Of a stretch of 64,000 nucleotides of DNA, positions 26,701-53,432 are shown piece after piece. A program made the translations under genes and the position numbers. Every line of letters starts with the position of its first letter. The first letter of the stretch is position 1. Below the pieces are notes generated by a model that was not told the origin of the DNA, ran no database searches, and saw nothing but the letters and a program-made list of their open reading frames with translations. This DNA comes from Polytrichum commune. Taxonomy: Eukaryota; Streptophyta; Polytrichopsida; Polytrichales; Polytrichaceae. The stretch is from assembly GCA_950295325.1 (NCBI GenBank), contig OX485803.1:70137554-70201553 (forward strand), written 5' to 3'.

Positions 26701-29700
26701 TGCGTAGGCATATACATGTGTATAATTAGCCAAGGTGTTAGTGGGTGGCTGTTTATTTTTATTACTTGTAGGTACGGGGAGATGTTTGCTGGAGTGGGAA
26801 TTTTGGTGACATTTCCCGGGAATGCATATTTGTGATGGATAAGTGTGAGTAGGCCACCTCTTCCGGGGGTATAGGGCATTCTTTGTTGGATGCACCTCGT
26901 GAGTGCGTGTGTGTTGTTGAAAGTGAGTTTGAATTCTGGAAATAAGTTTTGTATATATTTAGTAGATTTGTTTGCAGTGAATTTGGTTTCTTGGATATGA
27001 ATGATTGCTGTGTTATTTAGAGAGTTGTTGATTAAGTCTTGTAAGTTTGGTAGTGATGTGTTGAGCGATGACGCATTCCAAGTTATTATGCTTGTTTCGT
27101 GCTCGGTGTTAGAGTTCATTCTTGTGATTGGTGTGGGAGCGGCCGGGAGTGGGGGTGGGTGTGAGTATTCGCTTATATTTTCTAAACATCTAAGTGTTTC
27201 GGTTATTAACTGGTTTGGAAGGAAGGGGAATTCTTTCTTGAGGGTGATTGGTGTGGGTGTGGTGGCTTGGTTGTGGATGAAATCGTATATTTTGGTGTGT
27301 ATTGAGTTTTGGGGGAGTATTATATGTTGATTGTTTTCTATGAATACTGTGTAGGGGTGCGGTGTCAGTATGTGTCTTTCGGGGGGGTTGGTGAGGTTAG
27401 CTAGTCTAATAATTAGTGTGTTGGTCCATATGTCGTTAAAGTGGTAGTTTTGGGGTTGGGCTAGTATACTATTGCATGTGTCTATTGAGGGGTGGATGGT
27501 GATGACTATAGCATATAGCATATGGGTTGGTGGTGATTGCCTTTGTGTTTGGATGTATTGGTGTAGATGTGGGTGGGTAATTATTGCTTGATGGTGTAGA
27601 GGGTGTGTATTTCTTAGTATGGGAGCAAATGTATTTGCTATGTGTTGGTATTCGGGTTGTAGTTTGATAGTGTTTGGAATGAAGTATATCTTGGCTCTCT
27701 TTTTGTGTGTAGCAGGATGCGTATGTAGGATGTTAGGCATTGGTCCGGGGTTGGATTCTATGTCTCCGCATTTTAGTAATTCTAGTTTGTTAATGAAGTA
27801 GTATCCGTGGAAGTGAATTATTTTGGGGTTTTTCATGTTTGTTTTTAGATATATTGTGATTGTACATTTGGTTGTGGAAAATAGGTTAGGTATAGCGGGT
27901 ATGGTTTTTTCTATTTGTATGGGTGAGAAGTGTGGTTTCGTATTATTTGTAGATTTATGGCTTGTTATTGAATTAGGTTTCCAATTATTTATGAAGTGGT
28001 ATTTGTTATTCTTTGTGTGGCGAGGCCGGTAGGCCGAGGCCATTGTGTTTTTTGGGTGGGGTTGGTATTTTATATGAGGGCTTAATAGGTGTTTGATTTT
28101 GTTATGGTGTTCGAATCTAGGGTAGGGTTTATTTTTGGAGCATTTGTTTTGTAGGTGTGCTTTGGTATTTGTTGAGAGGTGAGGTTGGTATGTTGAGGTT
28201 GCTTTGTTTTTCGGGTTGAATTTTTGTTTAATATGTATATTTAGTTTTGGGTGGGGGTGGTTTTTGGGGAATGGTTTGTGGTTTTGGTGGGTGTTGTATT
28301 TAGTTGTTAGGTGTGTATGGGAGTTGTCTTGGAGTACGTGTTTTGTGGTTGTGCTTGGTTTCCATTTGGTTGTGATAGGGTTTGGTTTGTGGTGAAGATG
28401 GTAGGTCACGGTCATTTCGTAGTTTTGACATAATTTGTTTTTCAAGTGGAGGTTGGGTTTGGAGCTAGGGTATGGTGTGCTTTTTGAGCTTAGGTTGGGA
28501 TGTATTTTAGATAGTGGATGGGGCTCTAGGTTAGGTTGGTTTTCTTGCTTTGGGTGGGTATTATGTTTTGGGCATTGTTGTGGATGCACTTTGTTTTTTA
28601 GGTAGAGTTTAACTTTTGAGTGTATTCTATATTTCGGATGAAGTTTATTATTTGGATGAGAGATGTGTCTTAGATGGAGTCTATGTTTTGGATGAGGTAT
28701 GTATTGTGGGCGAAGTTGGGGGTGTTTGTGGTTTGGGGATAGTTTGGTTTTTGGATGAAGTTTGTGTTTTAGGTGGACTTTGTAATTTGGGTGTAGCTTG
28801 TTTCTTGGATGGAGATTGTGCTTTAAGTGGGGACTATATCTTATGTGAGGGTAGTATATTGGGTGGGGCCGTGGTGGTTTTTGTTTTGGGTGGGTATGTT
28901 GTTGTGGGGGGGATGTTGTATTTCTTAGTTGATTGGGTGGAGGATAATTGATTAGGTTAGGGTAGGTTCCTAGTTCATAATGTGGGTTATGTTTTGGATG
29001 AGATATGTATTTTGGGTAGTTTATGTATTTTGGATGGGATCCGTGTCTTGGATGAAGGAGGTGCCTTGGATGTGGTATGAATTTTGAGTATTTAACGGAG
29101 TCCGGGTTGTGTATTATGTTATTTGATTGTTTAGGTGTGAGGGAGGGATTTAGTTTTGAGTACGTCCTTTGTTTAGGATGCAACTTATATTTTAGATGTG
29201 GTTTGGATGTAAGATGGAGTTTGTTTGTTGGTATGGTGAAGGTATCTTTGATTTGGATGCATGATGAAGGTATCTTTGGTTTGTTCTTGTTTGATTTGTG
29301 GTATTTGTTTGGTGTGTATTTTGTTGTAGGGGGGGTGATGGGTGGGGTGGGTATAATGTTTTTTAGTTGTTTAGGTATGGATTGTAATTTTGTATGTTTG
29401 CTTGTAGTTAGGTTAGTTCCCCAATATTGTGTAAAGTTATTTTTGTATTTAGTTTTATGGCGAGGCCGGTAGGCCGAGGCCATTTTATTTTTTGGGTATT
29501 TGTAATTTGAGTGGTAGTTTGGTGTTGAGAACGGTAGTTTATTAGGTATGGGTTGTGTTTTGTATGTTGGGTGGGGTTTGTATTTTTGGTGGGGATTATA
29601 TTTTGGGTGTAATATGTATTTTGTGTGGGGTTTGTATTTTGGGTGTGTATATTGTTTCGTTTGAGTTCTGTCTTTGTGCATGTGTAAAGTAAAGTGATTG

Positions 29701-30431
29701 TATTTATATTTCATATGGTATTTTGGCCGTTGTATGGTATCATGGCTAGTATGATGGTATCTTTTATTATAGAGTACGGACTTTGTTGTAGGCGTGTGTA
29801 TGATGTTTGGGTATGGTCGGGTTTTAGTCTTATTTATTCTTTGGTTTTTTATGATCATGTTTTTGTTTATAGTGAAAGGGTTAGTTTTGGCGGGTGTTAT
29901 GCTTTTTATTTGTTTGAGTAGGGAGTATGTGTATTTTGGATTAATTGTATGGTATTTGTATTTTGTTTGAGTATAATGTTTTGTTTGGGTGTTGTATTTT
30001 GCTTGAGTGTGGTATTTTGCTTGAGTATAACATTTTTCTTGAGCATGGCATTTTGCTTGAGTATGGTATTTTGTTTGAGTATGGCATTTTGCTTGAGTAT
30101 GGTTTTTTGCTTGAGTATGATATTTTGTTTGTGTATGGTATTTTGTATGGTATTTTTCTTGGGTATGGTATTTTGCTTGAGTATGGAATTTTGCTTGAGT
30201 ATGGAGTTTGTTTTCGTATAAAGTAGATAACTTGTATTTCATATGGTATTTTGGACATTGTGGGATACTATGAGTAGTACGATGGTATCTAGTATTTATT
30301 CTAGGTGAAATAGTATATAGAATACTATGTGTAATACTATGTTTAATACTATGTCTACATATGTGTATGTATCTAAGATGTATTGAAGTAAATACTTTTG
30401 TTTTACCCGGCGTTTTGTGGTCAATCCACAT
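20716..30431 (-). pseudogene. E2 ORF2 (repeat N-terminus, 2A, APE, RT, RNH, RLE)
   Basis: Mirror copy of the E3 ORF2 (domain detail is given there; positions here are 73695 minus the E3 position). Main landmarks: hexapeptide repeats 30208-29955, 2A 27782-27741, YADD 24692-24681, RNase H about 22180-21745, RLE-like domain about 21130-20885. The coding frame is broken by three in-frame stops (25946, 25466 and 23340, first base on the minus strand) and by a length change in a C-run near 23650. E3 has exactly the same four lesions. The longest intact piece, 30431-25944, covers the N-terminus and APE (1,495 codons). Confidence 0.88.
27741..27782 (-). other. 2A ribosome-skipping peptide in E2 ORF2
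   Basis: ELLKCGDIESNPGP, matching the 2A consensus D(V/I)ExNPGP. The next residue is Met (PMPN). It separates the low-complexity N-terminus from the enzymatic domains. Confidence 0.88.
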
Positions 30432-32178
30432 TTGGCAGGTCTTTGATCATAAGATTTGGATTTACCAACCCAGTAATTTGTTGCATCCCGGTAAGTGCCA
30501 TGGTTAATGTGCTTTGGATGTCCAACATTTGCTTCTTCAATTTTTCGTTGATGTCATCTACATAGTTGTGGGCCTCTTTGACTATGTCATCCTTCAAGAC
30601 CTTCATCTCTTCGTGTAGTTCAAGCTTGAGTTTCTTGTTGCCTTCTTCAATGGCCTCCTTCATGATGGAAAAAACTTCGCTTTTGGTGGCATTCTTCTCC
30701 CCTTGGTTTTGGTTTTGGATTGCTTCAATGGTGTTCACCAAGCAAGTGTTAGTATCCTCAAATCCAAACTTGATCAACAAATCTTTGGAGGGTTTGTCAA
30801 TACCATCAAGACTTCTACGGTGTGGAGTGATTTCCACATGATAAACACCAATTTTTTCCTCTTTTCCTACAAACTTTTTGTATACAAAGGGGTTGAGGCA
30901 TTCAACATTTGCACTACCATTGTGTCTAATTCCATCTTGCTTATGGAACCAAATGGAGACAACATTCTTGGTTCCAATTATCTTGCAAATTTCAAGAGAT
31001 GTGTCATCAATGCTCATCAAGATGGGAAGGTTGTAGAGGGTGAGAGTTAGAGCTTCTTTCCTTTGTTTTTGCTCCAAGGTGAGAGAAGGCCCTTTGTTCA
31101 CTTGTCCTTCCAAAATTTCATGGTGTGTTGCAACTTGGAGTTCTTGAATTTTCTTGGCTTGTGCGGGGGTCGGTGCAACAATGTAAGCATGGTTGTTGGA
31201 AGTGCCCTTTTGCACCTCTACAATCTCAAATTCATAACCTCTCCTAAAACTATTCTCTAGAACATCTTTGAAGAGCATGTGTGAAGAGACATCAATCAAA
31301 GTTTCACTAGTGATTTTGATTGAGAGGTTGTTGTTCCTAGCTATGGAGTGGTAAGTCTTACATATCTTTCCAAGAGTACCTTGGGTTGATTTGGGATCCA
31401 ATTGTAGTATGAATGGTCTAAGTCCTTTCAACAAGGCCACACCATCAATTTCGGGGTGGAGAAGGTGGAGTTTGGCAATACCCGCCCAAACTCCTTTCTC
31501 TCCACCTCTCTTGACACTCATGCACATAATAGATATGGGCTCAATAAGGTTAGTACCAAGTGGTATTTGCATCAACTCAAGTCTTTTCCTTACTAGTTCT
31601 TTCACATGGTTATGGAGGAGAGGGGTGTTGGGTAGTTGAAATTCAATAGCAACATGGAAGTCCAAAGAGAGACATGTATTGGGATCGATTGGGATATCAT
31701 ATGGAATTTGTGTTAGGTTGAGGTGTTGTCCAAGGACACCATCCTCCCTCTTACCTGGGTAATAGATTTGGGGTATCCTTGGGAAGGATATTGTGACCCC
31801 CTCCATCTCTTCCGCTTCCTTCCTTGGTACACCCCTAAGTACCCTATCTTCAATGGATTCACCATCAAAGAGCTCTTCCAACCCCTCTTCCATAGCCAAT
31901 TTCTCCATGTTAGTGAAACCATACCAAAAATTTTGACGGAACCTTCGTTCCGGGAAAATGGAATTTACTTGTGTGGCTTGTGGGCGTCGTTGTGGGGTTT
32001 GGTGTAGAGACTTGTTCGGTGTTGTCTTCTCCCGGGTCCTCTTGGTGCCTATTTCCTTCGAAGCTTGATTCTCCTTTGCCTTCTCCGCTAAGAGCCGCAT
32101 GAGGTTTTGTGTGGGTGAGTCTACCTCCATGTTGTCATCATCACCAAAAACGGTTCGGAATGTGGAGGGTGATGCCAT
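30421..32178 (-). CDS. E2 ORF1 protein (RRM plus coiled coil)
   Basis: Intact 585-aa frame, identical in sequence to the E3 ORF1. ORF1 proteins of LINEs coat the element RNA and form the RNP. Residues about 374-460 fit an RRM: TLTLYNLPI as RNP2-like strand, an SIWFHK strand, HNGSANVEC as RNP1-like strand and a VYHVEITPHRR last strand. Residues about 505-570 are charged and heptad-like (EEGNKKLKLELHEEM), a probable coiled coil. The N-terminus is acidic then basic and looks disordered. Its stop TGA overlaps the ORF2 ATG by 11 nt. Base use is balanced, unlike the G-poor ORF2 beside it. Confidence 0.88.
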   Translation of the reverse strand: MASPSTFRTVFGDDDNMEVDSPTQNLMRLLAEKAKENQASKEIGTKRTREKTTPNKSLHQTPQRRPQATQVNSIFPERRFRQNFWYGFTNMEKLAMEEGLEELFDGESIEDRVLRGVPRKEAEEMEGVTISFPRIPQIYYPGKREDGVLGQHLNLTQIPYDIPIDPNTCLSLDFHVAIEFQLPNTPLLHNHVKELVRKRLELMQIPLGTNLIEPISIMCMSVKRGGEKGVWAGIAKLHLLHPEIDGVALLKGLRPFILQLDPKSTQGTLGKICKTYHSIARNNNLSIKITSETLIDVSSHMLFKDVLENSFRRGYEFEIVEVQKGTSNNHAYIVAPTPAQAKKIQELQVATHHEILEGQVNKGPSLTLEQKQRKEALTLTLYNLPILMSIDDTSLEICKIIGTKNVVSIWFHKQDGIRHNGSANVECLNPFVYKKFVGKEEKIGVYHVEITPHRRSLDGIDKPSKDLLIKFGFEDTNTCLVNTIEAIQNQNQGEKNATKSEVFSIMKEAIEEGNKKLKLELHEEMKVLKDDIVKEAHNYVDDINEKLKKQMLDIQSTLTMALTGMQQITGLVNPNLMIKDLPNVD

Positions 32179-32829
32179 GTTTGAATTGTTGTGTCCGAGT
32201 TCTCCTACAGCCTTGGTTCTCCTCCAGTAGCTCCTCGCCCGCAGCTCCCTCTAAATTTCCAGCAGCTCCTTGCCAACGGGTCTCGGTGTTGAAGTGTCTT
32301 TTGCAGAACTTGTAGTGTAGCACCTTGTTTAGAAAAACTTCTGGTTCGAAGCAGTCAGTAGCTTAGCCTGTTCTTCGTCCGCAACAACCCCTGGCAATAA
32401 TTCCCCAGTAGTAGGCAACAATTTTTTCTGATCAGCAGTCTTCCTTTGCGGCAGCAGGTGGCGTCTCCCTCTCGGTAACAAGCAACACCAATCAGCTTTC
32501 CCCGGGCAGCAATAGTCTTCTCCCTCGGCAGCAGGTGGTGTTTCTCCCGGGTAGCAGCAGTCAGTTTTTGTTTGTAGCTATCAGTGCCGGTGGGCAGTAG
32601 TGGGTGGCGGTAGAATTGTTATTAGTCTGGGTGTTTAGCTAAAACACCGGTCGTGGGGTGTTCACAGGGTCCTAATGATCACAGGGTGTTTCAACTTCGA
32701 TCGTGATGCAGCAACCGAATCCACTTGCCTTCGATATCTAGCTTCGGTGTATGGCTTCGGTGTGGCAGTAGGAGCCTTAGTTGTCAGTAGATGAGGTTCG
32801 GTGCGGCTAGTTCTTTGATGTTCGTGGAG

Positions 32830-33590
32830 CTCTGCGATTTAATCGCAGAGTACTCAGAGTGCCCAGATCACAAAGTGCCCAGGTTGATCGCAGAGTGTCC
32901 AGATCGCCGGAAGCGATCTCAAATTGATCACCGATTACTCCTGAAGTGAACTCAGAGTGCCAGATCACCGGAAGCGATCTCAGATTGATCGCCAATTGCT
33001 CCTGGAGTGAACTCAGAGTGCCAGATCGCCGAAAGCGATCTCAGATTGATTGCCGATTACTCCTGGAGTGAACTCAGAGTGCCAGATCGCCGAAAGCGGT
33101 CTCAAATTGATCGCCGATTACTCCTGGGGTGAACTCAAATCGCCGAATCGCCGGAAGCGATCTCAGATTGATCGCCAATTACTCCTGGAGTGAACTCAGA
33201 GCGCCATATCGCCGAAAGCGATCCCAGATTGATCGCCAATTACTCCTGGAGTGAACTCAGAGCGCCATATCGCCGAAAGCGATCCCAGATTGATCGCCGA
33301 TTACTCCTGGGGTGAACTCAGAGTGCCAGATCGCCAAAAGTGATCTCAGATTGATCGCCGATTACTCCTGAAGTGAACTCAAAGTGTCAGATCGCCGAAA
33401 GCGATCTCAGTTTGATCGCCGGTTATTCCTGAAGTGAACTCAGAGTGCCAGATCGCCGAAAGCGATATCAGATTGATCGCCGATTACTCCTGGAGTGAAC
33501 TCAGAGTGCCAGATTGCCGAAAGCGATCTCAGATTGATCGCCGATTACTCCTGGGGTGAACTCAGAGTGCCAGATCGCCGGAGTTTCACG
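32830..33590 (-). repeat. E2 5' UTR tandem monomers (~61 bp x ~12)
   Basis: About 12 head-to-tail copies with a 60-61 bp period, each including GAACTCAGAGTGCCAGATCG and CGAAAGCGATCTCAGATTG. Each unit carries GATCGC-CGAAA-GCGATC, a 6-bp inverted repeat. The layout resembles the promoter monomers of rodent L1 5' UTRs; promoter activity is an inference. Confidence 0.85.
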
Positions 33591-34021
33591 GAGTGTCCGA
33601 TCTGCTCGATCTCACTATCTTCTTCAGCAGCTACTTTGGTAGTTATTTGGTGTACTCTCTCGGCAGCGACGTACTTCTTCAGCATTGACTTTGATCGTTG
33701 TGGGGTGTTGTGTATTTGTAGAGTGCTCGGTGAGGATGAGCTCGCGTACGCTTCGGCACTTGTAGTTCAAGTATCTGAAGTGTGGTGGTGGACGGTGTTC
33801 ATAGGTCCCGAATGAAGAGCGCTCCTGGTGCGGGCCTCCAGCTGCTTTCAGAATTAGGTCACCGCGTTTCCAACTTTTCCAGGAGCGGCTACATCCTCAT
33901 TCTTCTTGGGTCCATGTACACTTTCCACTATCACAACATCGCTTCCTCGAACTCCCTAGTGCGTCCGGCACCGAGCTCTCTCACCGGGCGCAGAGCTTTC
34001 ACGCTTCGTTCATCGGCCCTC

Positions 34022-34041
34022 CGTGACGCTCAAGCAAGTAC
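34022..34041 (-). other. 20-bp non-shared 5' leader that belongs to E3
   Basis: On the minus strand GTACTTGCTTGAGCGTCACG, lying between the TTGTACGATCT target duplication and the first shared LINE base. Once the spacer is turned round it is the 5' end of E3. It is unlike the 48-bp leader of E2. Confidence 0.6.
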
Positions 34042-34052
34042 AGATCGTACAA
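34042..34052. repeat. Target-site duplication of E3, 5'-side copy
   Basis: AGATCGTACAA, the reverse complement of TTGTACGATCT found right after the 3' end of E3 at 53433-53443. It now sits beside E2 instead of E3, which is part of the case for spacer inversion. Confidence 0.85.
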
Positions 34053-34304
34053 CATTAAGGAGGAGCCACAGGCCCCTTCTTGCTCTCATATTCATTGCAT
34101 GCACATCTCTCTTGTTCCTCCAACCTAGTAAAGGTACTTGCATTACTGTCCCAGTGCCACATAGTAGATGGTCACAAATCCAGCATGCTCTCTGTGGAAC
34201 TAACCCATGCAGACACCCATTAGCCCAAGACCCAGCGGTTCTACAACAACATGAACTGCAACGCCGCAAGGGCCAACCCCGAATCGCACACACCGAATCG
34301 CACA

Positions 34305-34850
34305 CACCACAACATCGAATCACAGACAATGCGCACGGAGATCTTCACCGACCCAAGATCAGCATAAATCAAGCAAGCTGCGCCGAGGGAGGAGTAACCG
34401 ACTGTGCTACACCGAAACAACCCAGGACCGAAACAAGGAAAGACTCACAACATCGAATCACAAACAATGCACACGGGGATCTTCACCGACCCAAGATCAG
34501 CATACAAGCAAGCTGCGCCGAGGGAGGAGTAACCGACTGTGCTACACCGAAGCAACCCAGGACCGAAACAAGGAAAGACTCACAACATCGAATCACAGAC
34601 AATGCGCACGGGGATCTTCACCGACCCAAGATCAGCATAAATCAAGCAAGCTGCGCCGAGGGAGGAGTAACCGACTGTGCTACACCGAAGCAACCCAGGA
34701 CCGAAACAAAGAAAGACTCACAACATCGAATCACAGACAATGCGCACGGGGATCTTCACCGACCCAAGATTAGCATAAATCAAGCAAGCTGCGCCGAGGG
34801 AGGAGTAACCGAATGTGCTACACCGAAGCAGCAGATCTACACCGAAGCAG
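34305..34850 (+). repeat. E1 5' UTR tandem monomers (~137 bp x 4)
   Basis: Four copies with a 136-139 bp period (marker ACAATGCGCACGG at about 34326, 34463, 34599 and 34738). Each has an AGCAAGCTGCGCCGAGGGAG block and a CTGTGCTACACCGAA block. They share no visible similarity with the 61-bp monomers of E2/E3. The open frame that crosses them on the plus strand is an accident of repeat length and starts inside E2. Confidence 0.85.
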
Positions 34851-35065
34851 AGCGACACCGAAGAGACAATACCACCCTGCACCGAATCTGCACCGAACTA
34901 CACCGGAAGGACACCGAGGAAGGAGCGCAACGGCGAGTACACAGAGCGGTATTGCATCGGGTGAAAGGCCTAAGACCTAAGCCCGTAGTTGTGGCCCACG
35001 GAGAAAGCAACCAACTAGCGGACACCGGAAGAATGACCACTCAGAAAGCCTCCCACCGGAAAAGC

Positions 35066-36815
35066 ATGGGGGCCGAAAATGGAAGCCTAGCCCCCATAGC
35101 CCTAGCAAGGATTTTCGGGGAAGATGAGGACATTATGGAGATAGACTCTCCAGCTCAGAGCCTAAAGAGACTTTTAGAGGAAAAAGCAAAAAATCAAAGC
35201 AAAAGGGGAGCTCAAGGTAAACGAACTAGGGAATTCACCAAGGCATCACCAAGTCAAAAGGACCCAGCTGAAGAGTCCGCTTCCGCACACCTACCCAAAT
35301 TCAAATTTTGGTTAGGCTTTGAGGCCATGGAGAGGATTGCTAAGGAGCAAGGCCTAGAGGAGCTCTTCACGGATGAGACCATCGCCGACAGAATTACAAG
35401 AGGCATCCCCCGCAAAGAGGCCGAAGAGTTAGAGAGTGTAAGTATCTCTTATCCAAGAGTCCCTCAAACCCTTTACCCGAGTGAGAGGAGCGATGGCATA
35501 ATGGGACAACACCTTAATCTAACCCAACTCCCGCAAGAGATAGAAATGGATCCTATCTCTAAACTCTCTAAGGATTTTTCACATTGCTATCCACTTCCAA
35601 CTACCCAACAACCCTCTCATACACAATCATGTCAAAGACCTAGTTACGGAGAGGCTAAATGAGATGAAAATCCCGTTAGGAACCAACCTCATAGAACCTA
35701 TCTCGATTCTATGCATGAGTGTAAAGAGGGGAGGAGTAAAGGGAGTGTGGGCCGGGATTATTAAGCTTCACCTCCTCAACCCCCACATTGACGGGATTGC
35801 CTTACTTACCGGGCTTAGGGCCTTCATCCTCCACCTTGAGCCTCATTCAAGTGTTGGTAGCCTAGGGAAAGTGTGTAAGTCCTACCATACTATTGCTAGG
35901 AATAATAACCTATCAACAAAAATTACCAATGACACACTAGTGGGTATAACCGCCCACGACCTCTCTCTAGACGTCTTAGAAAATAGTTTTAGGAGGGGTC
36001 ACAATTTCGAAATTGTGGAAGTCCAAAAGAGTGTCGCTAATAACCACGCCTATCTTGTCGCTCCTACCCCCTCCCAAGCAAAAAAGATACAAACCCTCCA
36101 AGCTGCTACCAACCATCTAATCCTAGAAGGTCAAACTAAGAAGGGTCCCTATCTTACCTTTGAACAAAAGGCTAAGAAAGAGGCCCTCACTCTTACCTTC
36201 TACAACCTACCTATACTTATGAATATTGTAGATACTACCCTAGAGATCCGTAAAATCCTAGGGGCCAAAAACGTAGTGTCAATATGGTTTCATAAGGAAG
36301 ATGGCCTAAGGCATAACGGGAGTGCTAATGTAGAGTGCCTCAACCCCTTTGTCTATAGGCAATTTGTAGGTAAAGAGGCTAAGATAGGGGCCTACCACGT
36401 AGAAATTACCCCACACCGGCGAAGTCTAGAGGGTAGTGAAAAACCCTCTAAAGAGTTACTAGTCAAATTTGGGTTTGAAGACCCCAATACGTGTTTGGTA
36501 AACACGATCGAGGCTATCCAAAACCAAACAAAAGAAGAAGCAAAAGTTACTAAAGGGGATGTTTTTATCGTGATGAAAGAGGCCATCGAGGAAGGGAATA
36601 AAAAACTTAAACTCGAACTTCACAAGGATATGAAGGAGCTAAAAAATGACATTGTGAGAGAAGCGCATATGTACGCGGATGAAATCAACGAAAAACTCAA
36701 AAAACAAATGATGGATATTCAAAGCACCCTAACCTTGGCGCTTACGGGCATGCAACAAATTACGGGAGTGGGTAAATCAAACCTATTGCTCAAAGATCAA
36801 CCAAATGTGGAATGA
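35066..36815 (+). pseudogene. E1 ORF1 (RRM plus coiled coil), frameshifted
   Basis: Starts at ATG 35066 (MGAENGSLAPI) and ends at the TGA that overlaps ORF2. It is homologous to E2/E3 ORF1 along its length: an acidic EDEDIMEIDSPAQ segment near the start, the KRGGVKGVWAGI block, RRM strands (TLTFYNLPI, HNGSANVEC, YHVEITPHRR) and a C-terminal coiled coil (EEGNKKLKLELHKDM). One extra T in a T-run near 35577 throws the frame, so the protein is split at about 35660. Otherwise it is well preserved. Confidence 0.85.
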
Positions 36816-39625
36816 CCACAAATCGCCTAGAAACAAAAAAAGTATTTACCTTAAAAATATATTATACGTATATACGTATATGTACAAATAAAATACATAC
36901 ATACTACAATAAACACAATATATTATACAAAAGGTATTATACAATACCAAAAAAATCGTATGACATACAAATACAAAATACGACTTCTATGCCCAAATAA
37001 ATACAATACACAACAAAAGACCACTTACCATATACTCATACCAAAGTACAATACTCCAAACAACCATATGATACACAAATACGAAACACGCTCCACATAC
37101 CCAACAAAATACAAAATACAACAAAAAATTACTAATCCACAAATTACTCAACCAATACCCAAGCCAAAATACAAAATCCACACACAAAACAAAAAACATA
37201 TACAATACCATCATACGCTACACAACAAAGACCCAAACCACCCCTCTAACCCAAAATACTTCCAACCACATTCAAAGACCAATCTTCAAACAAAACACCG
37301 AAAATACCTAAAACAAACACTTCATCCAACTAACAAAATACACCCAAAAGACACATTTTTTCCAAAACAAAGCTCACATCCAAAACAGGAAATACACCCT
37401 AGCCCAAAAACATACCCACAAAATAAACTACACCCTAAACACAACCCGCATCGAACCCCCAAACAATGTCCTCCCACAAAACCCAAATCACACTCAAACC
37501 ACAAAAGATACCCAAAAAATAAAGTGGACTTGGCCTACCCCACACCTAGAAAACTAGAAAACATAACACCCAACCCACCCATCACCTCCCCAATAACAAA
37601 ACCTACACAAAACAAATACCAAAAATCAAAAAATCAAAAAACAACAATACCTAAATATACTACATCTAATACACATCAAGACCAACCAAAAAACACAACG
37701 CATATCCTACCCTACCCTATCACCCTAGCTACAACCGAATGTATAACAAACCTAACAATACACAAAACAAAACAAAAAATAAACAAAATCCACCCCTACT
37801 CAAAACTAAACTTCCACACTAAACAAAAATCCCACCCAACACCCAAAGCAACCTCAACCTATCGACTTCGTCACCCAACAAACGCCAAAAGACACCTACA
37901 AAACAAATACTCCGAAAATAAACCCCACCCTAACTCCCAACACCATCACAAACTCAAACACCTATCAAACCCTCATCCAAAATACCAACCCTACCCAAAA
38001 AATACAATGGCCTCGGCCTACCGGCCTCGCCACACAAATAATAAATTCCACTTCATAAACAAACGGAAACCTAACAATAAATACAAACACAACCTCACAC
38101 ACTATTGTAAAACTAAATCAACAACAAACAACTATACAAAACTACACCTCATACCTAAACAAATAAAAAACACAATACCCACCCCATACACCACCCATCC
38201 TACAACAAAACATGCACTAAAAATATTACAAAAATCAAAAAAGAAAAAACCAAAGATACTTAACCCATATAAATACCATTTCACCACATCAAATGCATCA
38301 AGCACGCATCAAAAACCTCACACAATAACAACGAACACTCCTATAATCAATCCATCCCCCCCCCCCCCGGTACATTTAGACAATTAAGGAAGATGACACA
38401 CACTTTACCAAACCCTACCAACATAACTAAAACCAAAAGCACAACAAAGCAAACACTTAAATACTATGTGAACTCACATCCCTTCCCTATACGACAAGAA
38501 ATCATTTTACCCATCCTAAAACACACCTTCTTTACAACAAAACTCGCACTCATTAAATACCAAGAATTAACCTCAAGTACAACGAACATAAAATATACAC
38601 AAAACAAGCACAAAAAATCAAGAAAGAGAAATCCAAGAAACACTACATCAAATACCCATCATGGGCTTCTCGCAAAGTACACCCCTATTGCCAACACATT
38701 CCCTCCACCTACATCTAGACAACCAAAAAATATAACACAATCCCTACCCCACCCTACCATCATAAATACAACCAAAAGTATAACAAACCCAACAAAACAC
38801 AAAACAGAACAAAAAACAATCAACAAAAATTATACTCAATACCAATCCACAAGCAAATGGATACCTAACAGAACAAATAAAAATCACACTTACACACAAT
38901 ACACACCCTCAAGACACATAAAATCCATACCCATACTCATTCCACCCCAAAAAACCAATAAAAACCAATATCAAACACTCAACTCACACCAAAACATTAA
39001 CCCAAATTTTTACCTCAAAAAACAACTCCATCCCCACACTAGGCACAAAATTGCACCCAAACACAAAAAGGTTTTAGCCCACCGGCCACGCCATAAAAGT
39101 TATAAATACCAATCTACAAACGAAGAGAAACCAAAAGTAATAACAATCTACAACACACACCTCCTACCCAAACAACTTAAAGAAATCACACTCATCCTAC
39201 ACTACAATGCCCATCCAACCCACAAACACCCCCAACCTCACCCAAAATACATGTCACATACAAAACATAGACTCCATTCAAGACACAACTCTCATCCAAA
39301 GAATAAACTTCAACCGAAATATAGAATCCGCTCCAAACTTAGACTTTACCTTAAAAACAAAGTGCATCCACAACAATGCCCAAAGCATAATACCCACTCA
39401 AAACAAGAAACCCAACCTAACCTAGAACCTCACCCACTATCTAAAAAGCACCCCAACCTACGCTCAAAAAGCACACCATACCCAAGCTCCAAATCAAACC
39501 TCCACTTGAAATACAAATCATACCAAAATTACAAAACGCCCTTGTCCTACCATCTCCACCACAAGCCAAACCTTATCACAACCAAATGGAAATCACGCAC
39601 AACTACAAAGCATGTACTCCAAGAC
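36805..39625 (+). pseudogene. E1 ORF2 N-terminal repeat region, broken
   Basis: Begins at ATG 36805, overlapping the ORF1 stop (ATGTGGAATGA), the same arrangement as in E2/E3. The encoded sequence is rich in Lys, His, Thr, Pro, Asn and Tyr with degenerate HPKxK-type repeats. It carries a MASAYRPRH module at 38006-38032 and a decayed one near 39077. The frame is lost early (stop at about 36889) and changes register again near 36960 and 38390. It ends where E2 entered, and the continuation is at 20262-12642 on the minus strand. Confidence 0.75.
39615..39625. repeat. Target-site duplication of E2, 5'-side copy
   Basis: TACTCCAAGAC, partner of 20252-20262. It now lies beside E3 because the spacer is inverted. 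Confidence 0.85.
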
Positions 39626-39673
39626 GTCCGAGGAAAGCATCTGGGACGTGTTGATTTGTGAATGAAAACAAGC
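39626..39673 (+). other. 48-bp non-shared 5' leader that belongs to E2
   Basis: Begins GTCCGAGGAAAGCATCTGGG and lies between TACTCCAAGAC and the first base shared by both arms. By target duplication it is the 5' end of E2. It could be leader transcribed upstream of a source copy, or sequence added by template jumping during insertion. Confidence 0.6.
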
Positions 39674-40104
39674 GAGGGCCGATGAACGAAGCGTGAAAGC
39701 TCTGCGCCCGGTGAGAGAGCTCGGTGCCGGACGCACTAGGGAGTTCGAGGAAGCGATGTTGTGATAGTGGAAAGTGTACATGGACCCAAGAAGAATGAGG
39801 ATGTAGCCGCTCCTGGAAAAGTTGGAAACGCGGTGACCTAATTCTGAAAGCAGCTGGAGGCCCGCACCAGGAGCGCTCTTCATTCGGGACCTATGAACAC
39901 CGTCCACCACCACACTTCAGATACTTGAACTACAAGTGCCGAAGCGTACGCGAGCTCATCCTCACCGAGCACTCTACAAATACACAACACCCCACAACGA
40001 TCAAAGTCAATGCTGAAGAAGTACGTCGCTGCCGAGAGAGTACACCAAATAACTACCAAAGTAGCTGCTGAAGAAGATAGTGAGATCGAGCAGATCGGAC
40101 ACTC

Positions 40105-40865
40105 CGTGAAACTCCGGCGATCTGGCACTCTGAGTTCACCCCAGGAGTAATCGGCGATCAATCTGAGATCGCTTTCGGCAATCTGGCACTCTGAGTTCAC
40201 TCCAGGAGTAATCGGCGATCAATCTGATATCGCTTTCGGCGATCTGGCACTCTGAGTTCACTTCAGGAATAACCGGCGATCAAACTGAGATCGCTTTCGG
40301 CGATCTGACACTTTGAGTTCACTTCAGGAGTAATCGGCGATCAATCTGAGATCACTTTTGGCGATCTGGCACTCTGAGTTCACCCCAGGAGTAATCGGCG
40401 ATCAATCTGGGATCGCTTTCGGCGATATGGCGCTCTGAGTTCACTCCAGGAGTAATTGGCGATCAATCTGGGATCGCTTTCGGCGATATGGCGCTCTGAG
40501 TTCACTCCAGGAGTAATTGGCGATCAATCTGAGATCGCTTCCGGCGATTCGGCGATTTGAGTTCACCCCAGGAGTAATCGGCGATCAATTTGAGACCGCT
40601 TTCGGCGATCTGGCACTCTGAGTTCACTCCAGGAGTAATCGGCAATCAATCTGAGATCGCTTTCGGCGATCTGGCACTCTGAGTTCACTCCAGGAGCAAT
40701 TGGCGATCAATCTGAGATCGCTTCCGGTGATCTGGCACTCTGAGTTCACTTCAGGAGTAATCGGTGATCAATTTGAGATCGCTTCCGGCGATCTGGACAC
40801 TCTGCGATCAACCTGGGCACTTTGTGATCTGGGCACTCTGAGTACTCTGCGATTAAATCGCAGAG
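40105..40865 (+). repeat. E3 5' UTR tandem monomers (~61 bp x ~12)
   Basis: Mirror of the array at 32830-33590, with the same unit and the same order of variant units. Identical variant order shows that the two arrays have not expanded or contracted separately. Confidence 0.85.
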
Positions 40866-41516
40866 CTCCACGAACATCAAAGAACTAGCCGCACCGAACC
40901 TCATCTACTGACAACTAAGGCTCCTACTGCCACACCGAAGCCATACACCGAAGCTAGATATCGAAGGCAAGTGGATTCGGTTGCTGCATCACGATCGAAG
41001 TTGAAACACCCTGTGATCATTAGGACCCTGTGAACACCCCACGACCGGTGTTTTAGCTAAACACCCAGACTAATAACAATTCTACCGCCACCCACTACTG
41101 CCCACCGGCACTGATAGCTACAAACAAAAACTGACTGCTGCTACCCGGGAGAAACACCACCTGCTGCCGAGGGAGAAGACTATTGCTGCCCGGGGAAAGC
41201 TGATTGGTGTTGCTTGTTACCGAGAGGGAGACGCCACCTGCTGCCGCAAAGGAAGACTGCTGATCAGAAAAAATTGTTGCCTACTACTGGGGAATTATTG
41301 CCAGGGGTTGTTGCGGACGAAGAACAGGCTAAGCTACTGACTGCTTCGAACCAGAAGTTTTTCTAAACAAGGTGCTACACTACAAGTTCTGCAAAAGACA
41401 CTTCAACACCGAGACCCGTTGGCAAGGAGCTGCTGGAAATTTAGAGGGAGCTGCGGGCGAGGAGCTACTGGAGGAGAACCAAGGCTGTAGGAGAACTCGG
41501 ACACAACAATTCAAAC

Positions 41517-43274
41517 ATGGCATCACCCTCCACATTCCGAACCGTTTTTGGTGATGATGACAACATGGAGGTAGACTCACCCACACAAAACCTCATGCGG
41601 CTCTTAGCGGAGAAGGCAAAGGAGAATCAAGCTTCGAAGGAAATAGGCACCAAGAGGACCCGGGAGAAGACAACACCGAACAAGTCTCTACACCAAACCC
41701 CACAACGACGCCCACAAGCCACACAAGTAAATTCCATTTTCCCGGAACGAAGGTTCCGTCAAAATTTTTGGTATGGTTTCACTAACATGGAGAAATTGGC
41801 TATGGAAGAGGGGTTGGAAGAGCTCTTTGATGGTGAATCCATTGAAGATAGGGTACTTAGGGGTGTACCAAGGAAGGAAGCGGAAGAGATGGAGGGGGTC
41901 ACAATATCCTTCCCAAGGATACCCCAAATCTATTACCCAGGTAAGAGGGAGGATGGTGTCCTTGGACAACACCTCAACCTAACACAAATTCCATATGATA
42001 TCCCAATCGATCCCAATACATGTCTCTCTTTGGACTTCCATGTTGCTATTGAATTTCAACTACCCAACACCCCTCTCCTCCATAACCATGTGAAAGAACT
42101 AGTAAGGAAAAGACTTGAGTTGATGCAAATACCACTTGGTACTAACCTTATTGAGCCCATATCTATTATGTGCATGAGTGTCAAGAGAGGTGGAGAGAAA
42201 GGAGTTTGGGCGGGTATTGCCAAACTCCACCTTCTCCACCCCGAAATTGATGGTGTGGCCTTGTTGAAAGGACTTAGACCATTCATACTACAATTGGATC
42301 CCAAATCAACCCAAGGTACTCTTGGAAAGATATGTAAGACTTACCACTCCATAGCTAGGAACAACAACCTCTCAATCAAAATCACTAGTGAAACTTTGAT
42401 TGATGTCTCTTCACACATGCTCTTCAAAGATGTTCTAGAGAATAGTTTTAGGAGAGGTTATGAATTTGAGATTGTAGAGGTGCAAAAGGGCACTTCCAAC
42501 AACCATGCTTACATTGTTGCACCGACCCCCGCACAAGCCAAGAAAATTCAAGAACTCCAAGTTGCAACACACCATGAAATTTTGGAAGGACAAGTGAACA
42601 AAGGGCCTTCTCTCACCTTGGAGCAAAAACAAAGGAAAGAAGCTCTAACTCTCACCCTCTACAACCTTCCCATCTTGATGAGCATTGATGACACATCTCT
42701 TGAAATTTGCAAGATAATTGGAACCAAGAATGTTGTCTCCATTTGGTTCCATAAGCAAGATGGAATTAGACACAATGGTAGTGCAAATGTTGAATGCCTC
42801 AACCCCTTTGTATACAAAAAGTTTGTAGGAAAAGAGGAAAAAATTGGTGTTTATCATGTGGAAATCACTCCACACCGTAGAAGTCTTGATGGTATTGACA
42901 AACCCTCCAAAGATTTGTTGATCAAGTTTGGATTTGAGGATACTAACACTTGCTTGGTGAACACCATTGAAGCAATCCAAAACCAAAACCAAGGGGAGAA
43001 GAATGCCACCAAAAGCGAAGTTTTTTCCATCATGAAGGAGGCCATTGAAGAAGGCAACAAGAAACTCAAGCTTGAACTACACGAAGAGATGAAGGTCTTG
43101 AAGGATGACATAGTCAAAGAGGCCCACAACTATGTAGATGACATCAACGAAAAATTGAAGAAGCAAATGTTGGACATCCAAAGCACATTAACCATGGCAC
43201 TTACCGGGATGCAACAAATTACTGGGTTGGTAAATCCAAATCTTATGATCAAAGACCTGCCAAATGTGGATTGA
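41517..43274 (+). CDS. E3 ORF1 protein (RRM plus coiled coil)
   Basis: Intact 585-aa frame starting MASPSTFRTV after CAAAC, a reasonable start context. It is the same protein as E2 ORF1. Order: acidic N-terminal patch (GDDDNMEVDSP), basic disordered stretch, conserved block VKRGGEKGVWAG, RRM-like fold (about residues 374-460), coiled coil (about 505-570). There is no CCHC knuckle. It probably acts as the RNA chaperone and coat of the element RNP. The TGA at 43272 falls inside the ORF2 start (ATGTGGATTGA), so ORF2 is probably reached by termination-reinitiation. Being intact while ORF2 is broken, it could still be expressed. Confidence 0.88.
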   Translation: MASPSTFRTVFGDDDNMEVDSPTQNLMRLLAEKAKENQASKEIGTKRTREKTTPNKSLHQTPQRRPQATQVNSIFPERRFRQNFWYGFTNMEKLAMEEGLEELFDGESIEDRVLRGVPRKEAEEMEGVTISFPRIPQIYYPGKREDGVLGQHLNLTQIPYDIPIDPNTCLSLDFHVAIEFQLPNTPLLHNHVKELVRKRLELMQIPLGTNLIEPISIMCMSVKRGGEKGVWAGIAKLHLLHPEIDGVALLKGLRPFILQLDPKSTQGTLGKICKTYHSIARNNNLSIKITSETLIDVSSHMLFKDVLENSFRRGYEFEIVEVQKGTSNNHAYIVAPTPAQAKKIQELQVATHHEILEGQVNKGPSLTLEQKQRKEALTLTLYNLPILMSIDDTSLEICKIIGTKNVVSIWFHKQDGIRHNGSANVECLNPFVYKKFVGKEEKIGVYHVEITPHRRSLDGIDKPSKDLLIKFGFEDTNTCLVNTIEAIQNQNQGEKNATKSEVFSIMKEAIEEGNKKLKLELHEEMKVLKDDIVKEAHNYVDDINEKLKKQMLDIQSTLTMALTGMQQITGLVNPNLMIKDLPNVD

Positions 43275-43486
43275 CCACAAAACGCCGGGTAAAACAAAAG
43301 TATTTACTTCAATACATCTTAGATACATACACATATGTAGACATAGTATTAAACATAGTATTACACATAGTATTCTATATACTATTTCACCTAGAATAAA
43401 TACTAGATACCATCGTACTACTCATAGTATCCCACAATGTCCAAAATACCATATGAAATACAAGTTATCTACTTTATACGAAAACA

Positions 43487-43740
43487 AACTCCATACTCAA
43501 GCAAAATTCCATACTCAAGCAAAATACCATACCCAAGAAAAATACCATACAAAATACCATACACAAACAAAATATCATACTCAAGCAAAAAACCATACTC
43601 AAGCAAAATGCCATACTCAAACAAAATACCATACTCAAGCAAAATGCCATGCTCAAGAAAAATGTTATACTCAAGCAAAATACCACACTCAAGCAAAATA
43701 CAACACCCAAACAAAACATTATACTCAAACAAAATACAAA
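43487..43740 (+). repeat. 18-bp coding repeats (YHTQAK hexapeptide)
   Basis: About 14 units of the type CATACTCAAGCAAAATAC, each encoding a Y/H-T-Q-A-K hexapeptide, kept in frame. The mirror copy is at 29955-30208. Farther on, the pattern grades into looser HPKxKL hexapeptides as far as about 45150. Confidence 0.9.
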
Positions 43741-45912
43741 TACCATACAATTAATCCAAAATACACATACTCCCTACTCAAACAAATAAAAAGCATAACA
43801 CCCGCCAAAACTAACCCTTTCACTATAAACAAAAACATGATCATAAAAAACCAAAGAATAAATAAGACTAAAACCCGACCATACCCAAACATCATACACA
43901 CGCCTACAACAAAGTCCGTACTCTATAATAAAAGATACCATCATACTAGCCATGATACCATACAACGGCCAAAATACCATATGAAATATAAATACAATCA
44001 CTTTACTTTACACATGCACAAAGACAGAACTCAAACGAAACAATATACACACCCAAAATACAAACCCCACACAAAATACATATTACACCCAAAATATAAT
44101 CCCCACCAAAAATACAAACCCCACCCAACATACAAAACACAACCCATACCTAATAAACTACCGTTCTCAACACCAAACTACCACTCAAATTACAAATACC
44201 CAAAAAATAAAATGGCCTCGGCCTACCGGCCTCGCCATAAAACTAAATACAAAAATAACTTTACACAATATTGGGGAACTAACCTAACTACAAGCAAACA
44301 TACAAAATTACAATCCATACCTAAACAACTAAAAAACATTATACCCACCCCACCCATCACCCCCCCTACAACAAAATACACACCAAACAAATACCACAAA
44401 TCAAACAAGAACAAACCAAAGATACCTTCATCATGCATCCAAATCAAAGATACCTTCACCATACCAACAAACAAACTCCATCTTACATCCAAACCACATC
44501 TAAAATATAAGTTGCATCCTAAACAAAGGACGTACTCAAAACTAAATCCCTCCCTCACACCTAAACAATCAAATAACATAATACACAACCCGGACTCCGT
44601 TAAATACTCAAAATTCATACCACATCCAAGGCACCTCCTTCATCCAAGACACGGATCCCATCCAAAATACATAAACTACCCAAAATACATATCTCATCCA
44701 AAACATAACCCACATTATGAACTAGGAACCTACCCTAACCTAATCAATTATCCTCCACCCAATCAACTAAGAAATACAACATCCCCCCCACAACAACATA
44801 CCCACCCAAAACAAAAACCACCACGGCCCCACCCAATATACTACCCTCACATAAGATATAGTCCCCACTTAAAGCACAATCTCCATCCAAGAAACAAGCT
44901 ACACCCAAATTACAAAGTCCACCTAAAACACAAACTTCATCCAAAAACCAAACTATCCCCAAACCACAAACACCCCCAACTTCGCCCACAATACATACCT
45001 CATCCAAAACATAGACTCCATCTAAGACACATCTCTCATCCAAATAATAAACTTCATCCGAAATATAGAATACACTCAAAAGTTAAACTCTACCTAAAAA
45101 ACAAAGTGCATCCACAACAATGCCCAAAACATAATACCCACCCAAAGCAAGAAAACCAACCTAACCTAGAGCCCCATCCACTATCTAAAATACATCCCAA
45201 CCTAAGCTCAAAAAGCACACCATACCCTAGCTCCAAACCCAACCTCCACTTGAAAAACAAATTATGTCAAAACTACGAAATGACCGTGACCTACCATCTT
45301 CACCACAAACCAAACCCTATCACAACCAAATGGAAACCAAGCACAACCACAAAACACGTACTCCAAGACAACTCCCATACACACCTAACAACTAAATACA
45401 ACACCCACCAAAACCACAAACCATTCCCCAAAAACCACCCCCACCCAAAACTAAATATACATATTAAACAAAAATTCAACCCGAAAAACAAAGCAACCTC
45501 AACATACCAACCTCACCTCTCAACAAATACCAAAGCACACCTACAAAACAAATGCTCCAAAAATAAACCCTACCCTAGATTCGAACACCATAACAAAATC
45601 AAACACCTATTAAGCCCTCATATAAAATACCAACCCCACCCAAAAAACACAATGGCCTCGGCCTACCGGCCTCGCCACACAAAGAATAACAAATACCACT
45701 TCATAAATAATTGGAAACCTAATTCAATAACAAGCCATAAATCTACAAATAATACGAAACCACACTTCTCACCCATACAAATAGAAAAAACCATACCCGC
45801 TATACCTAACCTATTTTCCACAACCAAATGTACAATCACAATATATCTAAAAACAAACATGAAAAACCCCAAAATAATTCACTTCCACGGATACTACTTC
45901 ATTAACAAACTA

Positions 45913-45954
45913 GAATTACTAAAATGCGGAGACATAGAATCCAACCCCGGACCA
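45913..45954 (+). other. 2A ribosome-skipping peptide in E3 ORF2
   Basis: ELLKCGDIESNPGP at ORF2 residues 884-897. The 2A core D-I-E-x-N-P-G-P and the upstream LL..G are present. Known 2A peptides release the chain between Gly and Pro without stopping translation. Here this would free a repeat-rich basic protein of about 896 aa from the enzymatic part starting PMPN. Confidence 0.88.
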
Positions 45955-48900
45955 ATGCCTAACATCCTACATACGCATCCTGCTACACACAAAAAGAGAG
46001 CCAAGATATACTTCATTCCAAACACTATCAAACTACAACCCGAATACCAACACATAGCAAATACATTTGCTCCCATACTAAGAAATACACACCCTCTACA
46101 CCATCAAGCAATAATTACCCACCCACATCTACACCAATACATCCAAACACAAAGGCAATCACCACCAACCCATATGCTATATGCTATAGTCATCACCATC
46201 CACCCCTCAATAGACACATGCAATAGTATACTAGCCCAACCCCAAAACTACCACTTTAACGACATATGGACCAACACACTAATTATTAGACTAGCTAACC
46301 TCACCAACCCCCCCGAAAGACACATACTGACACCGCACCCCTACACAGTATTCATAGAAAACAATCAACATATAATACTCCCCCAAAACTCAATACACAC
46401 CAAAATATACGATTTCATCCACAACCAAGCCACCACACCCACACCAATCACCCTCAAGAAAGAATTCCCCTTCCTTCCAAACCAGTTAATAACCGAAACA
46501 CTTAGATGTTTAGAAAATATAAGCGAATACTCACACCCACCCCCACTCCCGGCCGCTCCCACACCAATCACAAGAATGAACTCTAACACCGAGCACGAAA
46601 CAAGCATAATAACTTGGAATGCGTCATCGCTCAACACATCACTACCAAACTTACAAGACTTAATCAACAACTCTCTAAATAACACAGCAATCATTCATAT
46701 CCAAGAAACCAAATTCACTGCAAACAAATCTACTAAATATATACAAAACTTATTTCCAGAATTCAAACTCACTTTCAACAACACACACGCACTCACGAGG
46801 TGCATCCAACAAAGAATGCCCTATACCCCCGGAAGAGGTGGCCTACTCACACTTATCCATCACAAATATGCATTCCCGGGAAATGTCACCAAAATTCCCA
46901 CTCCAGCAAACATCTCCCCGTACCTACAAGTAATAAAAATAAACAGCCACCCACTAACACCTTGGCTAATTATACACATGTATATGCCTACGCACCCAGA
47001 AGACACATGTCTTATCCCACACCTTAAGAATGAAATCACTAAACAAATCACTACACACCCCAATCACATATACACACTGTGCGGTGACTTTAACAGAGAT
47101 ATTGCACTTAGGGGCAGACAAAATAACAACACTACTACCCCCCCACAAGAAGAGGACTTCCAATGGAAACATTTTACCACATCTCTCGACTTAGAATATA
47201 TCACTACCAACACTAGTATCTCCAGACAAGGTGGCTACAACTACACATCAACAAGCCTAATAGATGGTTTCTACATTCACTCCCTTGACAACAGCAAATT
47301 TACCTCCACTACAAACACAAACATGAATCTAAATTCAGATCACTACCCAGTCACATTACACATCCCACACAACACACTTATAGCTAGACCTCCGCCCTCT
47401 ACAAACACCACACCAACTAGGATACTGAACCCGATACCACCGGAAAACCTAGAAAACTTTAACATAACATTCTTCGAAGAAAACTCCACCCAACTTAAAG
47501 AACTTACCACACTATTAGAAGACAACCAACACTTAACACCTGATCAATGGCAAAATGCCTGCACATCATTAGAATACATTATAAACAAAATCTCAGAAAC
47601 AATTGAAAAAACCTGCAAAGCAGACCCTCTACCCAACCTCACAAACAAAACATCAAAACAAGGTGGTTTTTTACCACGCAAACTAGCTAGAGAATGGAAA
47701 AGACACCTCAACACATATCACCTCATCAGGAAAACCATTTACATTGTATAAAATGATCCAAGCTGGCAAGTACACCCCATCCTAAATGATATCCGAAACC
47801 ACCAACATGTCAACATCCCGCACCCACCTACTACAACAACATTTCTTGTCGAATGGATTGACACCATAGCAACTATCGCAAAAACGGCAAATAAAGAAGC
47901 CAGGAAAATTACCACAAAATACACCAGAGACTGCATCCTAAAAGCCGTATCAAAATACCGTCAAATGTATGAAAAAAGCCCCAAGAAAATAAATCGGAAA
48001 GTCTTCAAGAACACTGAAACCTCACCTCTTGACTCCATCATTGATAGACAAAACAACATATTAACCAACCCTGAAGACATTGCTTCAGAGATTTACGCAC
48101 AACAATCCATCAGTAACCGCCCCACAGTCCCCACATGCCACCATCAAAATACACATCCAATTCACTGTACATGTGGAGTAAGGCAATACCCTTGGCACGA
48201 CTTAGATGGATACACAATCGACAGACGATGAGAACCCCAAATCCCCTTGTACACATACCTTGATAAAGAAACATACGACTTCTGTCTTAAAAACCTAAGT
48301 AATAATAAAGTCCCAGGCCCAGACAAAATTCCCAACTCAATTCTAAAAAATATGCCTCCACGCTTTCACAAAATATTGTTTCTATTCTTTAAACACTGCT
48401 ATAAACAAAAACAAATCCCAACATCATGGAAAACTAGCCTAACAATTTTACTATATAAAAAAGGTAACCCATCACAACTAACAAATCACAAACCTATTGC
48501 ACTAGCTAACAATATATATAAATTATACACAAGCACATTAACTTCTATCCTATCAGCATACGGAGAAAGATACAAAATACTACACGATAGCCAAGAAGGG
48601 TTCAGAGCAGAAAGAAGCACCTCTAGACAAATCCAAATACTAATTGCAGCACTTGAAGACGCCAGACTCACAAACCAAGATATATACATTATTTATATTG
48701 ACTTTAAAAACGCCTTTGGCTCCATTGACCACGCCAGACTATTAGCTATAATAAAAGACCTGGGTTATCCCAATGACTCCATAAACCTCATAGGAAACAT
48801 ATACTCACAATCATCAACCATATTTACCGGCGAACACTTCGGGAAAACTCTACCAATCCACATCCAAAGAGGTACAATACAAGGCGATACCCTTAGCCCA

Positions 48901-51900: not shown

Positions 51901-53432
51901 GTAATGAAAAAGCGGATAAACTAGCAAAAGACGGGTTAGAATTAGAACACAGAATCGCCATACACCCATACGAACATGCCCACGCCACCCCATACTATTA
52001 TCAAAAGGACGTCTGGGCCTCAATGGAAGAAGTCCCAGACAAAGGCCCAGTAAGATTCTTAGAAAAACAAATTAAAAAATATGACAGGGAAACCAATATA
52101 GCAATCATGGCCACACAAACCCCCAACACGTGTAAATGGACAAAAAATATAGACATTGACAAAGAACTGTCCAACGAATTCTGGACAAATCCCTTAATCA
52201 CAGACAAACAAAAATCATGCCTTATTAAATTCCGCACAGGAACATACATGGGTAATGCTAGAAAACAAATGTTTTTCGGTCACCAGAGGTACCCCTCTAT
52301 CACGTGTCCCATATGCAATTCAAACGATCCAAACACTTGGCTACATGTACTGCTGAAATGTAACCAACAACATATACACTCACTACGAGTTAAAAGACAT
52401 AACAAAGCAGTTGGAGAAATTAGGAAGCTCCTAATCTCGTCCGAAAAATCCCGATGTTTTACCCTCATGAATGCCGGTACCTTCAATAATAATCCCCAAG
52501 AAAATACTGTCCCCAATTGGCTACTCCCCTGTGCATGTAACACACAAAGATGTAATTGCAATGCAAGGTTTCGCCCTGACATACTATGCGTCAAAGGATT
52601 ACCATATCAAAATGACCCTCCCATCGACGTTGATCCTAACCTCACCATACAATTTATCGAATTCACATATTGTAACGACAGATTTTCCCCAGAAACTATA
52701 GAAGCAAAAAACAACAAATACAAACCACTGATTGACAGTATCGCTTCTAGAGGATGGAAAATCGAACCACTTATTGTCCTCACAGCTGGGGCCCGAGCTA
52801 CGGCCCACATCCCATCCATGAAAATACTAGAAGAAAATCTCAAAATACCCATGGTTACCATCAAAAATACCTTTAAAAACATTAATACTATTGCAATACA
52901 ATATGCCATGTCCATCCTCCTACATAAGAGGAGACTTGAAAACCACCAACCGCTCCCCCAAAACTTAAACCCTCCATAAAACCCAAAAACTTATATAATA
53001 TCTTATATAATATCTAGTATCTACTTACAGCTCAGAATGAGGGACTGGTGCCGGTTGGTTGGTACAAATTTCCTGCCTTTTATTCACTTACAACACCAAG
53101 TCATGTGTTACATTTTAGACGATCATACGAACTCAACTGGAATTGAACCCGGAACGTCTTAACTCAAACATCCTCCCACAACCAACCGAGGAATCATGAC
53201 TTGGCGTTCACTCTCATTACAAAAACACTAATTATCCTTAAAAGCCATGCACCTCCGTGGGCCATAATCGGCCCATGTTATTTGTTTCTCGGTTACTATA
53301 GTGTCCATCCTCAAAAGAGGAGAGTAGTTTTGTCCCAGCTTCCCCATGTCCTGTGGGCATCGGGTTGTTGGCATTACGAACGGACACTCTATTCACGCCG
53401 GCCCCTAAAAGGGACCGGAGTTTCTATCTATC

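Follow-up and report, generated by a model that had tools for sequence, protein, structure and literature searches.

Does the spacer between two large inverted retrotransposon copies in Polytrichum commune lie in the orientation in which those copies were inserted and, if it does not, was it turned in the plant or in the assembly? The question was addressed in a stretch of 64,000 nucleotides (assembly GCA_950295325.1, contig OX485803.1, positions 70,137,554 to 70,201,553 of the forward strand), called the window below; all coordinates are positions within it. Two elements, E2 and E3, each of which looks like a full-length non-LTR (long terminal repeat) retrotransposon, or long interspersed nuclear element (LINE), form the arms of a palindrome, and a third, related element, E1, is divided among the spacer and the two outer flanks. 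The spacer as written (34022-39673) is in a non-ancestral orientation, different from that at the time of insertion. A real inversion by recombination between the arms is favoured over an assembly error, with a probability of roughly 0.55.

Self-comparison of the window yielded perfect inverted repeats at 20262-34021 and 39674-53433 (13,760 bp, 0 mismatches, 100% complementary), separated by a gap of 5,652 bp. The palindrome consists of:

20262-34021, minus strand: left arm, the body of LINE E2; its first base is part of a target duplication.
34022-39673, no strand assigned: spacer, holding the middle of E1, with one target duplication and one 5' extra stretch at each end.
39674-53433, plus strand: right arm, the body of LINE E3; its last base is part of a target duplication.

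Both arms are wholly contained in one sequence with no N. The full extents as written are 20263-34041 (minus strand, 13,779 bp) for E2 and 39626-53432 (plus strand, 13,807 bp) for E3. A reading frame of 626 amino acids (33782-35662, plus strand) crosses from the left arm into the spacer; it is absent once the spacer is turned, and is probably not a gene.

The target duplications of E2 and E3 were located as follows:

20252-20262, minus strand: TACTCCAAGAC, 3' target duplication of E2.
39615-39625, plus strand: TACTCCAAGAC, partner copy, now 5' of E3.
53433-53443, plus strand: TTGTACGATCT, 3' target duplication of E3.
34042-34052, minus strand: TTGTACGATCT, partner copy, now 5' of E2.

Flanks were compared in crossed and in written pairs, with the flank ends chosen when the 11-mers were already known; for these ends, both crossed pairs (2/2) matched over 11 bp at every setting of positional play, and the written pairs of E2 and E3 matched over 1 and 0 bp with no play and over 3 and 2 bp with 6 bp of play. 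Base composition gives each pair a probability of 3.5e-7 of agreeing by chance at 11 positions in a fixed register. Random pairs with one place in each flank outside E1 reached 11 bp in none of 320,000 trials (0/200,000 with no play, 0/100,000 with 2 bp, 0/20,000 with 6 bp). Random pairs drawn from the whole window at least 100 bp apart did so in 9/200,000, 7/100,000 and 2/20,000 trials at the same settings; some of these matches no doubt stem from the window's own repeats. The preliminary description of the locus had allowed that the 11-mers might be frequent by chance near the junctions. This was not so: TTGTACGATCT is found in the window at 34042-34052 and 53433-53443 and nowhere else, and TACTCCAAGAC has two further copies, at 28326 (minus strand) and 45359 (plus strand), which are the homologous site inside E2 and E3. 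Chance as the source of the crossed matches was rejected on the register probability and the random controls. Turning 34022-39673 round restores both 11-bp duplications.

The third element is a relative of E2 and E3 that lies in three pieces, on the minus, plus and minus strands as written:

12188-12200, minus strand: TATTGGGTAGTGG, 3' target duplication of E1, a 13-bp exact match to 53909-53921.
12201-20251, minus strand: 3' piece of E1, 8,051 bp, 90.4% identical to E3 over 8,079 aligned bp.
34053-39614, plus strand: middle piece of E1, 5,562 bp, with its first open reading frame (ORF1), facing opposite to the other two pieces.
53444-53908, minus strand: 5' piece of E1, 465 bp, bounded by the E1 and E3 duplications.
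53909-53921, minus strand: TATTGGGTAGTGG, 5' target duplication of E1, a 13-bp exact match to 12188-12200.

The end of the middle piece and the start of the 3' piece coincide on a single 11-bp stretch of the element, which is 45359-45369 in E3. Identity to E3 continues across this break, at 87% in the 411 bp leading up to it and 90-92% in the 400 bp that follow. An origin of the two halves from different insertions, which had also been raised beforehand, was rejected on both observations. Further upstream the middle piece matches E3 at 71% over 1,480 bp of the ORF1 region; before about 35250, over its first ~1.2 kb, identity is 37-52% per bin, hardly above chance. The 5' piece gave no match above 100 bp to E2 or E3 in the self-comparison, so with the near-chance start of the middle piece its assignment to E1 is drawn solely from the two duplications that bound it. 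Turning the spacer brings all three pieces onto the minus strand, with a summed length of 14,100 bp, close to the 13,779 bp of E2 and the 13,807 bp of E3. The arrangement points to E1 as a single insertion, older than E2 and E3, that was cut by E2. The turned spacer explains a shared history of the three elements that the written one leaves unexplained.

Some LINE insertions lack target duplications. On that basis E2 and E3 might have been inserted as written, with the 11-bp matches and the reversed middle of E1 being coincidences or the traces of separate insertions. Two exact matches in register at 3.5e-7 each, the empty random flank controls and a break in E1 on the same 11 bp of the element make this account hardly credible.

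The preliminary description had proposed that each LINE would receive a perfect 11-bp duplication, and that E1, whose middle faced opposite to its 3' part, would become continuous, once the spacer was turned. Both repairs were reproduced and the duplications are indeed perfect, but at the 5' ends they do not abut the element bodies. Two stretches of unlike sequence lie between:

34022-34041, minus strand: 20-bp 5' extra between duplication and element body, E3's after correction; matches elsewhere in the window of at most 10 bp.
39626-39673, plus strand: 48-bp 5' extra between duplication and element body, E2's after correction; matches elsewhere in the window of at most 12 bp.

The two extras are unlike each other although the bodies of E2 and E3 are otherwise identical. 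A search of the window for their origin gave short matches only; scans of the whole window with Rfam at gathering scores and for transfer RNAs found nothing. A template switch or 5' transduction is a possible source. A crossover inside the arms requires the 5' extras to travel with the 5' duplications, and the observed arrangement fits this.

The same features bear on whether the palindrome itself is genuine. Its perfect inverted arms could be taken for a fold-back sequencing artefact or a segmental inverted duplication, but the arms stop at element boundaries, the outer flanks differ, the 5' extras differ (20 and 48 bp) and each copy has a duplication of its own. An origin of this kind is very improbable; the fold-back artefact in particular was rejected on the boundary positions, the unlike extras and the separate duplications. 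A chimera with another locus is likewise unlikely, since the two flanks are tied together by the 13-bp duplication of E1, and the spacer is tied to each of them by the crossed duplications; it was rejected on these grounds.

The order of events favoured here is as follows. E1, a non-LTR retrotransposon of 14.1 kb, appears from its flanks to have been inserted on the minus strand with a 13-bp duplication. E2 then seems to have entered the ORF2 region of E1 on the same strand, and E3 to have entered 465 bp from the 5' end of E1 on the opposite strand, each with an 11-bp duplication. E2 and E3 form an inverted repeat with a 5.65-kb spacer. Recombination between the arms would keep the two copies identical through gene conversion, and an odd number of crossovers within the arms would invert the spacer, after which each element would bear the other's 5' duplication and 5' extra bases. 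The written orientation would be the derived state of a locus that may flip repeatedly.

The reading frames of the arms were assigned as follows:

41517-43274, plus strand: ORF1 of E3, 585 amino acids; E2 copy at 30421-32178, minus strand.
43264-50115, plus strand: ORF2 of E3, with a 2A-like motif, a weak endonuclease match and a reverse transcriptase, and with stops at 47749 and 48229; E2 copy at 23580-30431, minus strand.
50700-52979, plus strand: ORF3 of E3, listed open part, with a PCIF1_WW match, an RNase H and a Cys/His-rich C-terminus; E2 copy at 20716-22995, minus strand.

The ORF3 frame of E3 holds a further stop at 50355, upstream of the listed open part. E3, and by identity E2, thus carries three stops at which E1 has sense codons. 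Read in the ORF2 frame of E3, E1 has five other stops, of which two lie past frame-shifting indels of its own. A random change in the ORF2 and ORF3 frames creates a stop in about 3.5% of cases, and three stops suggest ~0.77% decay, with a wide error. Had E2 and E3 decayed apart, ~212 differences between them would be expected from three stops and ~141 from two; 0 were observed. The best likelihood drops ~370,000-fold (three stops) or ~5,100-fold (two stops) under separate decay, so a history of independent decay after insertion fits very poorly. Probably either the stops predate the parting of the copies, a dead source having been copied twice, or gene conversion homogenises the arms. Homogenisation by conversion is the condition under which inverted repeats flip, and in this way the shared stops favour a real inversion if the source was not already dead.

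Several points weigh against that reading. An ORF3 start before 50355 is needed for the stop there to count as a lesion. The perfect arms could be two recent insertions from one source that was already dead. If E2 and E3 are simply young, they were inserted at most about 11,000-109,000 generations ago (95% bound, for assumed mutation rates of 1e-8 to 1e-9); young arms leave little time for an inversion, and an assembly error then gains. How old the arms are and whether the inversion is real are therefore linked questions. Identical arms carry no marker of a crossover point, and an arbitrary choice of orientation at a perfect 13.76-kb repeat would look identical.

An assembly error would mean that the DNA is in the insertion-time orientation and that the assembler took the wrong route through the identical arms. 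Unless reads span an arm, which needs reads longer than about 14.2 kb, 13,760 identical bp allow either orientation as a valid path. A simple model of read lengths, at 30x haploid depth, predicts ~1 spanning read for a mean length of 12 kb and ~3 for a mean of 15 kb; for means of 18-20 kb the prediction rises to ~7-9, and the completeness of both arms without N suggests long reads. According to the available text of a comparable human and chimpanzee study, one chimpanzee locus was left out because it was an assembly error (PMC2603318). The shared stops, in turn, favour recombining arms, provided that the source was not already dead. On balance an assembly error is a serious possibility, though one we lean away from. 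With identical arms, the preliminary description was right not to choose between inversion and mis-orientation; its statement that junction polymerase chain reaction cannot decide between them was too strong.

Both orientations might also coexist, in the sequenced individual or in the population. This follows from the mechanism favoured above, and yeast strains show both orientations of a similar region, some diploid isolates being heterozygous, according to the available text of that study (PMC9731477). A second orientation is not shown in the one sequence at hand, and coexistence seems rather unlikely on present evidence. The fullest version of the inversion reading is a self-made flip/flop locus, in which a LINE family has twice inserted into an older copy of itself, the resulting 13.8-kb arms are kept identical by conversion, stops included, and the centre keeps inverting in natural individuals. 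It is put forward as a tentative idea that we would sooner doubt than assert.

The elements were assigned to non-LTR retrotransposons on their coding content and ends. The reverse transcriptase matches RVT_1 with an expect value (E) of 2.8e-27; among solved structures R2 proteins are best (E 1.5e-30) and LINE-1 lies behind (E 6.6e-16). The RNase H matches RNase_H at E 2.1e-13. The duplications are of variable length (11, 11 and 13 bp), as in LINEs, and in the self-comparison of the window no repeat above 100 bp links the two ends of any one element. ORF1 of E3 matches no Pfam family at E 0.01. The endonuclease-like region of ORF2 matches Exo_endo_phos_2 at E 0.0011 and 19.3 bits, below the Pfam cut-off of 27.4; against solved structures it finds exodeoxyribonuclease III with an E of only about 0.8, and a heat shock protein scores better (0.076). 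A restriction-like endonuclease was looked for in the C-terminus of ORF3, which has no solved relative up to E 10; a structure model of this part, with a predicted local distance difference test score (pLDDT) of 35.5, was too poor for use. Dualen/RandI non-LTR retrotransposons combine a reverse transcriptase and an RNase H, as the element here does, and possibly carry two endonuclease types, according to the available text of the source (PMC4640811). A restriction-like endonuclease would suggest membership of that group; here the comparison with solved structures did not show one, and the first, apurinic-type endonuclease is at most weakly indicated. No relative was confirmed in the viral and prokaryotic collections searched, either among viral contigs (0 from 1 and 89 pattern matches) or among genome contigs (0 from 585).

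Further features of the elements were noted. The 2A-like motif GDIESNPGP is present in ORF2 of both lineages (45931, plus strand, in E3; 19690, minus strand, in E1), upstream of the endonuclease-like region. ORF3 carries, beside the RNase H, a match above cut-off to PCIF1_WW (E 4.1e-11 in E3; E 8e-12 in E1, where ORF3 occupies 12642-15206 on the minus strand), a family named after a cap-adenosine methyltransferase. The catalytic motif of PCIF1, NPPF, was not spotted by eye in ORF3. Near their 5' ends E2 and E3 hold a tandem array of a 61-bp unit in 11.3 copies (32891-33580 and 40115-40804), and E1 a different one, of a 138-bp unit in 3.8 copies (34308-34830). Outside the elements, 1/8 scanned flank frames had a Pfam match at E 0.01, a plant-type, lipid-transfer-protein-like frame at 2706-3032 on the plus strand (LTP_2, E 6.2e-11), which hints at a host among the land plants.

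Identity between E1 and E3 is a mosaic. In 200-bp bins (45359-53432 against 20262-12201) it is 90-95% from 45.4 to 46.3 kb, 80-89% to 49.5 kb and 90-98% after that, with steps from 92 to 80% near 46.3 kb and from 86 to 94 and then 98% near 49.5 kb. In 50200-52979 the changes between E1 and E3 fall 28, 15 and 73 times on codon positions 1, 2 and 3, an excess at third positions which suggests that selection was acting while most of the divergence in this 3' block built up. Local gene conversion between E1 and the arms was considered as the source of the mosaic and set aside given that excess. We infer instead that the mosaic reflects recombination among active ancestors.

Both the mechanism and the use of duplications as a diagnostic are already known for this kind of inversion. 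In the available text of a human and chimpanzee comparison, mismatched target duplications identified inversions between L1 or Alu copies, with 49/252 inversions being of this type (Lee et al., 2008; PMC2603318). As described there, two like, opposite-facing elements lie at the breakpoints and duplications are mismatched within each element in the derived state, as at the present locus. In that study a second genome supplied the other orientation and hybrid elements were aligned to their parents, whereas here the arms are identical and one genome is at hand; the elements here are also 13.8 kb long and nested in a third. The available text on a Saccharomyces flip/flop region (PMC9731477) describes inverted repeats homogenised by gene conversion, with inversion proposed as a by-product and both orientations seen; those repeats are of about 4 kb, contain genes and enclose a 24-kb region, against LINE arms, a 5.7-kb spacer and one orientation here. 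For human Y palindrome P6, 83 phased chromosomes yielded counts of 3 inversions and 56 conversions, and the rate of inversion was put at 1.36-1.72e-5 per generation, so far as the available text goes (PMC3723533). There too the arms are homogenised by conversion and inversions are rare; they exceed 100 kb, lie on a haploid chromosome and are not described in that text as transposon copies.

At the present locus the original order can be read from three nested insertions, and it is not the order in which the sequence is written. If the inversion is real, the locus would be a small one at which conversion and inversion between large identical transposon copies could be measured against each other. 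If it is an assembly error, the case shows that swapped target duplications can reveal misoriented sequence that might escape read mapping.

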